Source: Paenibacillus piri (GTDB taxonomy: Bacteria; Bacillota; Bacilli; Paenibacillales; NBRC-103111). From it: a stretch of DNA of 64,000 nucleotides. Position 1 is the stretch's first letter. Every line of letters begins with the position of its first letter. Shown here piece after piece: positions 2,031 through 39,481 of this stretch. The notes beneath the pieces were generated by a model, which was not told the DNA's origin, did not search any database, and worked only from the letters and a program-made list of their open reading frames with translations. The stretch lies in the NCBI RefSeq assembly GCF_004354045.1, contig NZ_SMRT01000005.1:62001-126000 (forward strand), written 5' to 3'. The position numbers and the translations under genes are program-made.

Positions 2031-3131
2031 ATGGATAACGAATCATTGTTGGCTAAAGTTCGCGACATGGAGCATGAATTTATTACACATTGGCTTAATG
2101 CAGTCAGTTCACAGTTTGCTGATGCGGATAAAGATCACTTGTATCAAATCGGGCGGGCTTATTTTCAATACATGACCGAGCTTGCAATTTCTGCTGAGAA
2201 TCATCCGGCCATCTCGCACGCGGCGCAGTGGTTTATGCGTTCGGACAACGATATGATGACGGTTCAACGAATTCATTACAACTCCCGCTCGTGGCGGCAA
2301 GCCTTGCATGCAATCGGCGGCAAGCTGCTGACGATGGAGCTTTTCAAGCGGTTCTGCGACAGAATCGATCACTTCGAAAGCGAAATGTGCCGTATTTATT
2401 GGGAGCAGGCGGCCGAGCGTACCAAAGAGAAAGAGCTGGTATTGGATCAGCTGCACGACGACAGAATGAATTTGATCGGTAAAATGGCCTCCAGCATGGC
2501 CCATGAAATTCGCAATCCGCTTACATCCATAAAAGGCTTTCTGAAATTGCTGCGAACCGGCATTCATCAGCAGCCGTTTCATAAAGCGGACTCTTATCTC
2601 GATTACATAGAGCATGAATGCGATAACATTTTAATGCAGGTGACCGGATTTCTCAGCTTCTCCAAGCGTCCGATCATGGAGGAGGAGCCGGTCTACATTT
2701 CAGCCAAGCAGGTGCTGGATCATAACATCTCGCTGTTGAATCCGCGGCTGATCGATGAGAATGTCGATTTGACGCTTGCCGTTCCGGAGCATATCAAAAT
2801 CCGGGTTCAAAAGCTGGCCATTCAACAGGTGCTGTCCAATCTGCTGAACAACGGCGTCGATGCGCTATCCTCCGTCAAAACAAACAAGCGGATCACGATC
2901 ATTTGTTACGAGGATCATGCTAACGCTTACATAAGGGTCAGCAACAACGGTCCGAAAATTCCGCCGGAATTGGGGCAGACGATCTTCACTCCGTTCGTCA
3001 CGAACAAAGAGAACGGGACCGGGCTCGGCCTTGCGATCTGCAAGCAGATCATGCTTCAGAACAATGGCGATATTTCATATACAAGCAACGATCAGGAGAC
3101 GGCTTTTCTGCTTACATTCCGCCGATCCTAG
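2031..3131 (+). CDS. Soluble sensor histidine kinase downstream of c-di-GMP riboswitch
   Basis: Two-component sensor kinase of 366 residues. Residues 1-130 are a helical, Asp/His-rich sensor region that I do not recognise, with no membrane segment. A short linker follows, then the HisKA dimerisation domain with MAHEIRNPLTS (phospho-accepting His158). The HATPase domain has an N box near 275-285 and the G box GTGLGLAI near 333. The catalytic core resembles Bacillus sporulation kinases, which feed phosphate to Spo0F; that role here is inference. No response regulator lies nearby, which fits an orphan phosphorelay-type kinase. AGGAAGG lies ahead of the ATG. The gene is under the riboswitch and terminator just upstream, so its level probably follows c-di-GMP. 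Confidence 0.85.
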   Translation: MDNESLLAKVRDMEHEFITHWLNAVSSQFADADKDHLYQIGRAYFQYMTELAISAENHPAISHAAQWFMRSDNDMMTVQRIHYNSRSWRQALHAIGGKLLTMELFKRFCDRIDHFESEMCRIYWEQAAERTKEKELVLDQLHDDRMNLIGKMASSMAHEIRNPLTSIKGFLKLLRTGIHQQPFHKADSYLDYIEHECDNILMQVTGFLSFSKRPIMEEEPVYISAKQVLDHNISLLNPRLIDENVDLTLAVPEHIKIRVQKLAIQQVLSNLLNNGVDALSSVKTNKRITIICYEDHANAYIRVSNNGPKIPPELGQTIFTPFVTNKENGTGLGLAICKQIMLQNNGDISYTSNDQETAFLLTFRRS

Positions 3132-14625: not shown

Positions 14626-14654
14626 TTGTAAAAGGTAACAGCACATGGTAGTAT
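14626..14654 (+). promoter_or_regulatory. Promoter of the ykkC-like riboswitch transcript
   Basis: TTGTAA, 17 bases, TAGTAT, placed so that transcription would start a few bases before the aptamer. Confidence 0.55.
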
Positions 14655-14660
14655 ATAACA

Positions 14661-14782
14661 ATTAAGTGGAAGGGCTTCTAGGGATCCGAGGGCGCGAAAG
14701 CGCCGGTTCGAACCAAGCGAAGCCGGACGCCGGCCGGAAGGCCGCGTTACACCGTAGGGATAAAAGACCTCGAGCAAGTTCC
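14661..14782 (+). promoter_or_regulatory. ykkC-family riboswitch aptamer (subtype-2-like)
   Basis: The conserved ykkC blocks are in order. CTAGGGATCCG is followed by a GC-rich stem with a GAAA loop, then GGTTCGAACCAAGCGA, a second GC-rich stem (GCCGGCC..GGCC) and ACACCGTAGGGATAAAAG. In guanidine-I RNAs, as I recall the consensus, the middle block is closer to CTGGTCCGAGAG and the last to ACACGGAGGGA. The forms here (TTCGAACCAAGCG and ACACCGTAGGGA) look nearer to the subtype-2 RNAs that sense ppGpp, PRPP or nucleoside diphosphates. The 3' end overlaps a perfect terminator, a typical switch layout. The ligand is unassigned. Confidence 0.7.
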
Positions 14783-14815
14783 GCCTGCCAAGGCGAAACG
14801 GCACGAGGTCTTTTC
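14762..14815 (+). terminator. Riboswitch-controlled terminator before the ABC-2 operon
   Basis: AAAAGACCTCG pairs perfectly with CGAGGTCTTTT. The 5' arm contains the last conserved aptamer bases (GGGATAAAAG), so aptamer folding and terminator folding exclude each other. Confidence 0.8.
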
Positions 14816-14847
14816 TGCTTTAGCGGAGGAAAGGAGAAGGGCGATCG

Positions 14848-15861
14848 ATGAACGCAATACGGGTCGAAGGGTTGAGCAAAACATTCGCAGTCAAGCAAAA
14901 GGCAAGCGGGCTGATGGGCAGCGTGCAGTCGCTGTTGAAGCCGCGCTTCAGCGAGAAAGCGGCGGTCCGCCGGATCGATCTGACGGTGGAACAGGGAGAG
15001 ACGCTGGCGTTCCTCGGACCGAACGGGGCGGGCAAATCGACGACGATCAAAATGCTCACCGGCATTTTGCATCCGTCCGGCGGCGCTGCGGAGGTGCTGG
15101 GTCTGTGTCCGTGGAAGGAGCGCCGCAGGCTGGCTTATCATATCGGCTCCGTATTCGGGCAAAAATCGCAGCTCTGGTATCATCTCCCGCCGCTCGACTC
15201 CTTCGAGCTGATGAGCCGGATTTACGAGCTGAAGCGCGCGGACTATTTCAGCCGCCGCGACGATCTGATCCGGCGCTTCGAGCTGGAGCCGTATTTGCAC
15301 ACCCCTGTGCGCAAACTGTCGCTCGGCGAGCGGATGCGCTGCGAGATTGCCGCGGCCATGCTGCACCGGCCGAAAATAGTATTTCTCGACGAACCGACCA
15401 TCGGGCTGGACGTCATCGTCAAGCAAAAGATCCGCGAGCTGATCCGCGAGATGAACAGCGAGGAAGGAACGACGGTGTTCCTGACCTCGCATGATGCCGG
15501 CGATATCGAGCAGCTGTGCAAGCGGGCCGTCGTCATCAATCACGGCCAGGTTATTTTGGACGAAGGCGTGGAACGGATGAAGCGGGAGCTGCTCACCGAG
15601 AAGACGATCCGGCTGCAGCTGCAGGAGCCCGGTCCGCCCTTTCGTTTTCCCGGCGTCGAAGTGCTGCGGCAGGAGGGAGGCGCGATGGAGCTGTCTGTCG
15701 AAACGGTGACGGCCGGCATCGAACAGGTGCTGGCTCACATCGTAAGCCACTACCGTGTCGTCGACGTGACGATTGAGGACCCGCCGATGGAGCAGATCAT
15801 CACTCACATTTATGCCAAAGATTCCGCCGTACGGCGGGAGGAAGCGAGGCAGCGGCCATGA
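14848..15861 (+). CDS. ABC-2 type transporter ATP-binding protein
   Basis: ATPase subunit of 337 residues. Walker A is LGPNGAGKSTTIKML near residue 65, the Q-loop is in SVFGQKSQLWY, the signature is LSLGERMR, Walker B is VFLDEPTIGLD and the switch His is in TSHDAGD. A C-terminal regulatory extension follows after about residue 240. The pattern matches the uncharacterised ABC system with DUF990-type permeases (COG4586). The next two genes encode both membrane subunits. It is the first gene behind the ykkC-like riboswitch, so its expression should depend on that ligand. Direction is probably export, as in most ABC-2 systems, but the substrate is unknown. Confidence 0.88.
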   Translation: MNAIRVEGLSKTFAVKQKASGLMGSVQSLLKPRFSEKAAVRRIDLTVEQGETLAFLGPNGAGKSTTIKMLTGILHPSGGAAEVLGLCPWKERRRLAYHIGSVFGQKSQLWYHLPPLDSFELMSRIYELKRADYFSRRDDLIRRFELEPYLHTPVRKLSLGERMRCEIAAAMLHRPKIVFLDEPTIGLDVIVKQKIRELIREMNSEEGTTVFLTSHDAGDIEQLCKRAVVINHGQVILDEGVERMKRELLTEKTIRLQLQEPGPPFRFPGVEVLRQEGGAMELSVETVTAGIEQVLAHIVSHYRVVDVTIEDPPMEQIITHIYAKDSAVRREEARQRP

Positions 15862-16751
15862 GCGTACTCCCGGAAAGAGAGAGCCGGATGGCAGACCGGC
15901 ATGCTGTCGAAGCCGAGGGGCGTTTCGCCAAGCCGCATAGGCTTGCAGCCTCGGTGTTGGGAAAAGCGGTGAAATATAGCGCCATCGGCCGGGTGACGCT
16001 GCGCAACCATTTCGCCTATGTAATTGATTTTATCGTCCGCTCGATCTTTCTCATCATGATTATGTATGTGTTCATCCAATTGTGGCGCGTTACCTATCAA
16101 GGCGAAGGAACGGCGCTGATTGAAGGCTACAGCTACGAGCGGCTGATCTGGTATATTTTGTTCGCCGAAGCGCTCACGACCGCATTCCCCAGCTTATCCA
16201 CGCGCATCGAGGAGGAAGTGAAGAACGGCGATGTCGGCTACAAGCTGACCCGGCCTTTGAACTATATCGGCTACCACTATGTCGGGTATGCAAGCGAGGT
16301 CGGCATCCGGCTGCTGGTCAACGTCGGCATCGGCGGCTTGCTCGGAGTGGCCGTGTTCGGATGGCCGTCATTCGGGTGGGGCTGGGCCGGTTTTTTGCTC
16401 ATATCGTTCGGCGCCGTTACGATCAACTTTTTACTGAATATGGGGCTGGCGCTGTGCGCTTTTTGGGTGGAGGAGACGCGCGGCCTGGAGTTCGTTTATC
16501 ATAAAATGCTGTTCACGATCGGAGGCATGCTCATGCCGCTCGAGCTGTTTCCGCAGCAATTGCAGGATGTATGCCGGTGGCTGCCGTTTCAAACGGTGCT
16601 TTATTTTCCGGCGAAAACGGCGGTCAGATGGGACGATGTTCACCTGCTGCCGATGCTGTTGACGCAGGCGCTGTGGGTTGTACTGTTGGCAGCGGTCGTC
16701 GGACTGATGTATTGGAGAGGCGTAAGGAAGCTGAACGTAAACGGCGGGTAG
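15858..16751 (+). CDS. ABC-2 type transporter permease (DUF990-like), subunit 1
   Basis: Membrane subunit of 297 residues with about six hydrophobic helices (first near residues 55-75, last near 268-285) and a short charged N-terminus. It resembles the COG4587 half of the DUF990 pair. The ATG overlaps the TGA of the ATPase gene as ATGA, so translation is coupled. No catalytic motif is expected. Together with the next gene it should form the heterodimeric channel. Confidence 0.85.
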   Translation: MSVLPERESRMADRHAVEAEGRFAKPHRLAASVLGKAVKYSAIGRVTLRNHFAYVIDFIVRSIFLIMIMYVFIQLWRVTYQGEGTALIEGYSYERLIWYILFAEALTTAFPSLSTRIEEEVKNGDVGYKLTRPLNYIGYHYVGYASEVGIRLLVNVGIGGLLGVAVFGWPSFGWGWAGFLLISFGAVTINFLLNMGLALCAFWVEETRGLEFVYHKMLFTIGGMLMPLELFPQQLQDVCRWLPFQTVLYFPAKTAVRWDDVHLLPMLLTQALWVVLLAAVVGLMYWRGVRKLNVNGG

Positions 16752-16900
16752 CTGCGCTTGTCTCGTCCCCGACGGGCGGCAAAGTCAATGATCCCGAATG
16801 CCGCAGCGCTTGCATCTGCAGGGGGGAGCTATCGAATGCCAGCGATATCAGGAAAACTGCGCCATGATTCAGGAGTCATGCGATCGGAGGAATACAGCCA

Positions 16901-17698
16901 ATGTGGGGAAAAATAGCAGGATTATCCGCTTTTGTCTGGGGCTGCTGGAAGCTGAATTTGGCGGGCTCGATGGAGTTCCGCATGAGCTTTCTGCTGACTG
17001 CAGGAATGATGGTCATCAACAACATGGTATGGATTTTGTTCTGGGGCCTTTACTTCAACCGGTTCCAGGTGGTGAACGGCTGGTCGTTCCAGGACGTCGT
17101 GATGATGTGGTCGGTCAGCGCGGGCGGCTTCGGCTTATCGGCCGTTTTATTCGGCAACGCATACCGGCTGGGCTCGCTGATTGCGGCCGGACAGCTGGAC
17201 ATTTATTTGTCCCAGCCGAAGCCGGTGCTGCTGCATATTTTGATCAGCCGCATGTCGGTATCGGCGATCGGCGATGTTATATTTTCGCTGCTCTTGTATG
17301 CCCTGTTCGGCAACCATACCATTGCAGGCTTGCTGAAATATGCGCTTGCGCTGCTGATCGCCATGCTGATTCTGATGTTTTTCGTCGTCATCGTGCAGTC
17401 GCTCGCGTTTTTTATCGGCAATGCCGAAGGCTTGGGCCAGCAAATATTTAACGGACTGCTCGCCTTTTCAACGTATCCGACGGGAATTTTTACCGGCTGG
17501 GGCAAGCTGATTTTGTTCACGGTGCTGCCGGCGGGCTTTATCAGCTATTTGCCGATCGGATTGCTGCGCGCGGCGGAGCCGGTATTTTTGACGCAGGCCA
17601 TAAGTGTAGCGGCAGCGCTGGCCGTGGGCGGGACGTGGTTTTTTTATTACGGGCTGAAAAAGTACAGCTCCGGTAATATGATGGGCATGCGGAACTAG
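16901..17698 (+). CDS. ABC-2 type transporter permease (DUF990-like), subunit 2
   Basis: Second membrane subunit, 265 residues, with six hydrophobic helices, fitting COG3694 (DUF990). The ATG at 16901 follows GGAGGAA. A 150-base gap without a recognisable terminator separates it from subunit 1, longer than the coupled junction upstream, but the pairing of the two permeases with one ATPase is the family rule. Confidence 0.85.
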   Translation: MWGKIAGLSAFVWGCWKLNLAGSMEFRMSFLLTAGMMVINNMVWILFWGLYFNRFQVVNGWSFQDVVMMWSVSAGGFGLSAVLFGNAYRLGSLIAAGQLDIYLSQPKPVLLHILISRMSVSAIGDVIFSLLLYALFGNHTIAGLLKYALALLIAMLILMFFVVIVQSLAFFIGNAEGLGQQIFNGLLAFSTYPTGIFTGWGKLILFTVLPAGFISYLPIGLLRAAEPVFLTQAISVAAALAVGGTWFFYYGLKKYSSGNMMGMRN

Positions 17699-39350: not shown

Positions 39351-39356
39351 GATTTA

Positions 39357-39448
39357 TGTCACTAGGGGAGCCTAACCGGCTGAGATTGGATCGCAGATCC
39401 TAGACCCTCTGAACCTGATCTGGATTGTGCCAGCGTAGGGAAGTGGAG
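39357..39448 (+). promoter_or_regulatory. TPP (THI-box) riboswitch
   Basis: The aptamer blocks are ACTAGGGGAGCC, GGCTGAGAT, ACCCTCTGAACCTGATCTGGAT and AGCGTAGGGAAGTGG in order, the classic THI element. The CACT/AGTG ends form P1. A terminator follows at 39482-39517, so binding of thiamine pyrophosphate should stop transcription of ykoEDC. Confidence 0.97.
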
Positions 39449-39481
39449 AGCGTTTGAAGCGTGTAATGAAATTCACACATG

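Follow-up and report, generated by a model that had tools for sequence, protein, structure and literature searches.

A divergent ykkC-fold RNA, probably a subtype 2a (p)ppGpp riboswitch, upstream of a DUF990-type ABC-2 exporter operon in Paenibacillaceae

Introduction

What distinguishes one riboswitch of the ykkC fold from another? The ykkC RNAs associated with natA transporters and with glutamate synthase have been grouped with those of branched-chain amino acid genes as subtype 2a, a class verified as ppGpp-responsive (PMC5912903), and a natA aptamer from Clostridiales is stated to prefer pppGpp about 10-fold (PMC12373219, citing earlier work). The structural literature supplies the residues that separate the classes. 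Guanidine-I RNAs are described as being without helix P0 and as having A at position 49; C75 forms a pair with the guanine of ppGpp in a converted aptamer whose structure was solved; G104 is a PRPP contact in the crystal structure and touches ppGpp as well in the converted aptamer; and position 96 separates PRPP from ppGpp aptamers (PMC6031431). Co-transcriptional probing of a ppGpp riboswitch points to antitermination by a stabilised outer helix, there named P1 (PMC10687018). On the protein side, the DUF990 family of ABC transporters is listed as the ethyl viologen exporter family, TCDB 3.A.1.141 (PMC5417439).

We have analysed a 64,000-nucleotide stretch of the Paenibacillus piri genome, referred to as the window, in which a ykkC-fold aptamer (14662-14786) is followed by a competing terminator and then by a three-gene ABC-2 operon (14848-17698). 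We propose, with a probability of roughly 0.83, that this RNA is a (p)ppGpp-sensing ON riboswitch of ykkC subtype 2a and that it represents a divergent form seen to date in Paenibacillaceae. In the literature searched, which left out most subscription papers, we found no report of the Paenibacillaceae form.

Results

The aptamer and its fold

The aptamer (14662..14786; all features of the locus lie on the + strand) is confirmed as a genuine ykkC-fold RNA, beyond chance. The leader has a folding z-score of -4.2, none of 200 shuffles was equally stable, and model R2, built from ppGpp-type RNAs and trained without natA-type RNAs, finds the aptamer in a search of the whole genome at 81.3 bits (E 6.5e-19), although the alignment it was trained on had been built using the natA-type model R1. 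The fold, the shuffles and the R2 match agree with the initial annotation, which had recognised a ykkC-family leader here and had described its sequence correctly. That annotation had also suggested a comparison with the Rfam covariance models. The only ykkC-type Rfam family that matches the aptamer is RF00442, the guanidine-I model, and it scores poorly, so that the clear guanidine-I score named at the outset as counter-evidence is not what is seen: the full-length alignment reaches 33.8 bits (E 1.4e-4 for 351 bases searched) against a gathering score of 63, and the aptamer is for this reason absent from a scan of the window at Rfam gathering thresholds. At relaxed thresholds the leader also gave a c-di-GMP-I-GGC match, at 20 bits against a cut-off of 59, which we take as chance.

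A DNA search of 59 relatives, the window's own genome included, gave a match in 23, and 22 aptamers from the 23 loci were aligned, with the window's RNA included and locus L019 left out. Among these natA-type aptamers 39 positions are invariant, a structure with helices P0, P1, P1a, P1b, P2 and P3 pairs 93.6% of the cells, and both sides change at 10 of 23 pairs; none of 500 shuffles reached any of five measures. Since the consensus structure was partly read off the same 22 sequences, this covariation is moderate support only. The 5' strand of P0, UGGAA (14667..14671), pairs with 14779-14783 in 97.3% of cells and has a U-G to C-G change. P1, in which 14673..14678 pairs with 14719-14724, is paired in 98.5% of cells and shows both-side changes at four of its six pairs. 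Likewise, P3 (14756..14770), in which AGG (14756-14758) pairs with CCU (14768-14770) across the loop GAUAAAAGA, is 98.5% paired and has an A-U to G-C change, while P2 is the weakest helix (72.1%). P0, P1, P2 and P3 are also formed by unconstrained folding of transcripts of 122-138 bases. Both the ykkC core fold (P1, P2 and P3) and the additional P0 helix are present, as in the ppGpp riboswitch (subtype 2a).

Terminator, promoter and operon

The 3' part of the aptamer overlaps an intrinsic terminator (14762..14822) that competes with P3 and P0 and folds alone at -29.6 kcal/mol. The initial annotation had called this overlapping terminator perfect. The overlap is borne out by the stem AAAAGACCTCG/CGAGGTCTTTT (14762-14772/14804-14814), with its 11 Watson-Crick pairs, but "perfect" goes slightly too far: past these pairs the stem has imperfections, and the U tract that follows is short and broken up. 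In all 25 natA-linked loci described below, the 3' part of the aptamer can form nine or more contiguous pairs with downstream sequence, G-U pairs counted. In the full transcript the terminator structure (-74.9 kcal/mol) is preferred over the forced aptamer (-56.8 kcal/mol). This layout is that of the usual ON design, in which the ligand would hold the aptamer against the terminator.

A probable promoter, recognised by eye at 14626..14654, consists of a -35 box TTGTAA (14626-14631), a 17-nt spacer and a -10 box TAGTAT (14649-14654) preceded by TG. This promoter-like pair ends seven bases before the aptamer and would place the transcription start at about 14661; by eye, similar boxes recur when the 48 bases before each of 25 natA-type aptamers are compared. 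A promoter scan with a threshold of 9/12 consensus matches listed no site at the locus because the candidate has 8/12.

The operon encodes a natA-like ABC ATPase of 337 residues (14848..15861; PF00005, 1.4e-25) and two ABC-2 permeases of PF06182 (ABC2_membrane_6), which we take to be the former DUF990. The gene for permease 1 (15858..16751; 3.7e-15) starts within the end of the ATPase gene, and that for permease 2 lies at 16901..17698 (2.3e-25). A search of solved structures with permease 1 found no relative (best E 0.21). By Pfam, the locus has the makeup of the DUF990/EVE ABC exporter family, an ATPase with PF06182 permeases. The interval originally marked, 14661-15861, covers the ATPase and leaves both permeases outside. 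The operon had been described as an uncharacterised DUF990-type ABC-2 exporter; the PF06182 matches uphold the family assignment, while the published TCDB listing (3.A.1.141) means that the family is not wholly uncharacterised. The same makeup of an ATPase with DUF990-type permeases is found in EvrA/EvrC of Synechocystis, a likeness drawn from Pfam and from a table in PMC5417439. Immediately 3' of the operon lies a gene for a CheX-like chemotaxis phosphatase (PF13690; 17859-18314, +), and upstream of the locus the window holds two HAD-like genes, as judged by eye.

Class models and the RNA sample

An Rfam 15 scan of ppGpp-type and PRPP-type aptamers among 20 loci gave no family besides RF00442, and class models were therefore built in this analysis: R1 from natA-type RNAs (22 rows, L030 among them), R2 from a ppGpp set and R3 from a PRPP set. 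The training sets of R2 and R3 were aligned with R1, and both models have its structure. R1 has matches in 207 of 398 genomes of the phylum. Thirty loci from the R1 search, 80 more of the listed matches and the RNAs of the window's family together gave 134 distinct RNAs, which were sorted into classes according to the gene that follows, recognised by text patterns in the predicted proteins. The ppGpp set (45 RNAs) lies before ilvE, ilvB, ilvC, ilvD, liv, glt, leuA and SNF-type amino-acid genes and the PRPP set (51) before purine genes or purine permeases, a division that agrees with the published one between subtypes 2a and 2b (PMC5912903, PMC7266159). Twenty-five RNAs are natA-linked (22 in the window's family and three in one other family outside the window's class), two are guanidine-I RNAs and 11 are unassigned (seven without a recognised gene, three before peptide-permease-like genes and one before an amidohydrolase). 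Of the unassigned RNAs, the second aptamer of L092 is among the 52 rows of R3; the other 10 are in neither R2 nor R3.

Class-marking positions

Published residue numbers (PMC6031431) were assigned to these RNAs by motif matching, and positions 104 and 105 by distance from P0. Within the family, every one of the 22 natA-type RNAs has GGAA or GGGA opposite UUCC in P0. The 5' strand of this helix reads GGAA or GGGA in 39/45 RNAs of the ppGpp set and GAAA in 46/51 PRPP-set RNAs. The equivalents of G48 and C49, matched from motif, lie at 14717..14718. Position 49 is C in 22/22 natA-type RNAs, in 43/45 of the ppGpp set and in 15/51 of the PRPP set, where the other 36 have U; a looser five-position pattern misread it as G in one of the 22 natA RNAs. 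The equivalents of C75-A76-C77-C78 (14750..14753) read CACC in every natA-type RNA, and A5 and G6 are kept as consistently (22/22). Just before the CC in the 3' strand of P3, A is found in 22/22 natA-type RNAs, 30/45 of the ppGpp set and 0/51 of the PRPP set.

Position comparison places the equivalents of 104 and 105 at A 14777 and G 14778, directly before the P0 3' strand (14779-14783; the whole element spans 14777..14783). The 105 equivalent is G in 21/22 natA-type RNAs, and the 104 equivalent is A in 22/22, in 16/45 of the ppGpp set and in 1/51 of the PRPP set, G being present in the other 50. Because G104 touches ppGpp in the converted aptamer, A at this position fits ppGpp less than perfectly; the ppGpp set nevertheless tolerates it. 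A second peculiarity is the middle block CGAACC (14709..14714), which is specific to the lineage: it occurs in 20/22 natA-type RNAs of the family and in neither the ppGpp set (0/45) nor the PRPP set (0/51), most reference RNAs having UGGUCC or UGGACC, and would imply a C-A mismatch in P1b. Third, the 3' junction of the family is two bases shorter than the commonest form, a short junction being found also in 13 of the 44 ppGpp-set RNAs in which it could be measured. C75 is kept in 22/22, but the short junction leaves position 96 (G or not) without certain placement; counting it from P0 separated the classes uncleanly and was replaced by reading from P3.

Five class-marking positions, picked after inspection of the training sets, assigned 45/45 RNAs of the ppGpp set and 50/51 of the PRPP set correctly in a leave-one-out comparison. 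On these positions the window's RNA scores +16.7 bits for ppGpp over PRPP, as do the three natA-linked RNAs outside the window's class. Three PRPP RNAs of the window's own family, situated beside guanine aptamers, score -6.1, -12.2 and -6.1 bits; the ppGpp-side result is therefore not just shared ancestry. The class-marking positions, P0 and the low RF00442 score all accord with the earlier impression that the RNA stands closer to ykkC subtype 2 than to guanidine-I.

Whole-model scores agree weakly with the ppGpp direction. The window's RNA receives 81.3 bits from R2 and 80.1 from R3, and this margin of 1.2 bits marks it as divergent. R2 exceeds R3 in all 23 natA-type RNAs (the window's RNA and L030 included), with margins of 0.1 to 14.2 bits, and in the three natA-linked RNAs outside the window's class (L062, L076 and L080, from one family) R2 gives 94.8-100.8 bits and a margin of 17-19. 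In a second batch, covering 41 of 69 loci, R2 scored above R3 in 30 of 31 natA-type sources, several of which repeat the first batch and two of which are one RNA; in the exception, the natA-linked L208, R3 is slightly above R2 (22.4 vs 20.2 bits). R3 was the higher in 3/3 PRPP loci and 7/7 guanidine-I loci of that batch, and in the PRPP RNAs of the window's family it was better by 17-24 bits.

Linkage to the exporter

Of 104 genomes of the window's family, 66 encode a match to the ATPase at E <= 1e-100. Upstream of 62 of these 66 orthologous genes R1 finds an aptamer in the same orientation, in 56 cases at a distance of 58-113 bases. Absence of the aptamer from homologous operons, raised at the outset as evidence against the assignment, is thus not what is seen. 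At the remaining four loci no aptamer was found in the 1.2-1.6 kb upstream with filters off. The count takes in the best 65 R1 matches, down to 46 bits, and leaves out family matches below 46 bits; of the latter, nine were fetched and proved to be seven guanidine-I RNAs and two guanine-PRPP tandems. Three of the 65 matches lie away from those ATPases. The one in G510 belongs to a genome without an ATPase match at E <= 1e-100, and the one in G497 is a second match in its genome and is a guanine-PRPP tandem. The third, in G001 (L030/L179, C80, same genus), is a natA-type aptamer before small genes, one of them HTH-like by eye, and the exporter copy of that genome is itself without an aptamer.

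Outside the window's class, L062, L076 and L080 are canonical ppGpp aptamers before ATPases of the same family, that of L076 being 51% identical to the window's ATPase over 337 residues. A natA-like ATPase downstream is accordingly a subtype 2a gene context. When a species-level genome collection was searched with a pattern for the family form, 31 stretches matched, all titled Paenibacillus or Paenibacillaceae. Genome-wide, R2 found no second RNA of this kind: the next two matches, at 33.6 and 29.1 bits, belong to the guanidine-I RNAs of the genome, and the final one has 15.5 bits (E 2.9). With the window's RNA the only convincing R2 match in the genome, the exporter, and not amino-acid synthesis, is therefore the target that has been kept.

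Discussion

The class-marking positions and the orthology of the downstream genes point to subtype 2a and (p)ppGpp. The initial annotation had left the ligand class uncertain and had raised a new ligand or a new target; that suggestion is not supported by these two lines of evidence, natA being a published target (PMC5912903), and the RNA is probably a divergent representative of an established class, placed before a target of a known kind. With the natA-associated ppGpp riboswitch it shares the P0-P3 fold, a GGAA/UUCC P0, C at 49, C75-A76-C77-C78, the A before the CC of P3, the overlapping terminator and the natA-like target; it differs in CGAACC, the shorter 3' junction and A at 104 throughout the family (22/22).

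From these comparisons we infer the ligand, the switching direction and the physiological role of the RNA. RNA polymerase would start at about 14661 and transcribe the aptamer first. Without ligand, the terminator would capture the 3' strand of P3, the junction and the 3' strand of P0, and transcription would stop near 14822. When ppGpp or pppGpp builds up in starvation, the guanine of the ligand would pair with the C75 equivalent (14750) and its phosphates would be held by the equivalents of A5, G6, G48, C77 and G105. P0 would then be locked by the ligand and the terminator blocked, so that the ATPase and the two DUF990-type permeases could be made.

The alternatives differ in how far they depart from this picture. 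The nearest, which we consider unlikely but not negligible, is that in Paenibacillaceae the RNA has become a distinct ykkC variant. Its preference would have shifted within the alarmones, for example strongly towards pppGpp or pGpp, or else to a different guanine nucleotide, and its sole function would be to switch on a single DUF990-type exporter; the altered middle block, A at 104 and the shortened junction would account for the shift, and export of some compound would then be a direct output of the stringent response. We give distinctly less credence to a separate ykkC class, in which the middle block and short junction would have reshaped the pocket for some other guanine-bearing or polyanionic ligand. 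CGAACC in 20/22 family members and in 0/96 reference RNAs, the small whole-model margin, A for G at the 104 equivalent in 22/22 and a pump with no known starvation role would suit such a class. The equivalents of A5, G6, G48 and C75-A76-C77-C78 are kept, however, as is G105 in 21/22; A at 104 (16/45) and the short junction (13/44) both occur in the ppGpp set; and elsewhere canonical ppGpp aptamers stand before genes of the same family.

The described classes account for the RNA less well still. That it is a nucleoside-diphosphate (subtype 2c) or orphan subtype 2d RNA is very improbable: subtype-2 RNAs are very similar to one another (PMC5912903) and two HAD-like genes stand upstream in the window, but the genes reported for these subtypes in PMC7266159 encode NUDIX or HAD-like hydrolases and EamA/TauE transporters, not ABC-2 pumps. 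Subtype 2c, which is set apart here by gene context, would have a NUDIX or HAD-like hydrolase where this locus has an ABC ATPase directly downstream. Among the loci examined none could be recognised as a subtype 2c or 2d RNA, and 30 further loci from low-scoring genomes lay, by eye, mostly before purine genes or nucleobase permeases. The PRPP riboswitch (subtype 2b) has the overall fold with P0 and C75 in common with the window's RNA, and R3 scores it nearly as high as R2 does (80.1 bits). PRPP RNAs, in contrast, mostly have a GAAA/UUUC P0, GCCC-N-G, G at 104 and purine genes downstream, whereas the window's RNA has GGAA, GACC, A at 104 and no purine gene, and PRPP RNAs of the same family favour R3 by 17-24 bits; we hold this assignment to be highly implausible. 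A guanidine-I riboswitch of drifted sequence is the hardest of all to credit. It would share the P1-P3 core and the terminator platform, and RF00442 is the sole ykkC-type Rfam family matched; but guanidine-I RNAs are without P0 and have A at the 49 equivalent, the guanidine-contact position (PMC6031431), where the window's RNA has P0 and C, and its 33.8 bits fall under the cut-off of 63 and far under the 67-93 bits with which RF00442 scores the guanidine-I RNAs of the window's own genome and family.

Read as a subtype 2a RNA, the locus would represent a riboswitch that probably responds to a starvation alarm and is not reported by the standard RNA library; it stands before 62 of the 66 family copies of one exporter gene. 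The role of DUF990-type exporters thereby becomes testable, as the question of what leaves the cell when (p)ppGpp is high. Matches to RF00442, moreover, are not safely readable as guanidine sensors, since the PRPP-type RNAs L089 and L077, both with a guanine aptamer next to them, score 77.2 and 64.6 bits as Guanidine-I, over the cut-off of 63.

Finally, we note other riboswitches seen in the course of this analysis. Within the window, a c-di-GMP-I riboswitch (1777-1858, +; 38.6 bits, cut-off 35) precedes a gene (2031-3131) that is sensor-histidine-kinase-like by eye, and a TPP riboswitch (39354-39458, +; 78 bits) precedes a membrane-protein gene and a double-ATPase gene, which by eye probably form a thiamine-related transporter operon. 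A purine aptamer lies directly upstream of the PRPP-type aptamer in L077, L089, L104, L209, L213 and L215, the last three being in the window's own family; among Rfam-scanned loci of the PRPP set this is the case in three of five (L077, L089 and L104), and such tandems are already published (PMC5912903). Similarly, in L038 and L041, close to branched-chain amino acid genes, a ppGpp-type aptamer is followed by a T-box-like element (80.5 and 57 bits; below the cut-off of 93), and both resemble the ppGpp/T-box pairs described in PMC9481103.
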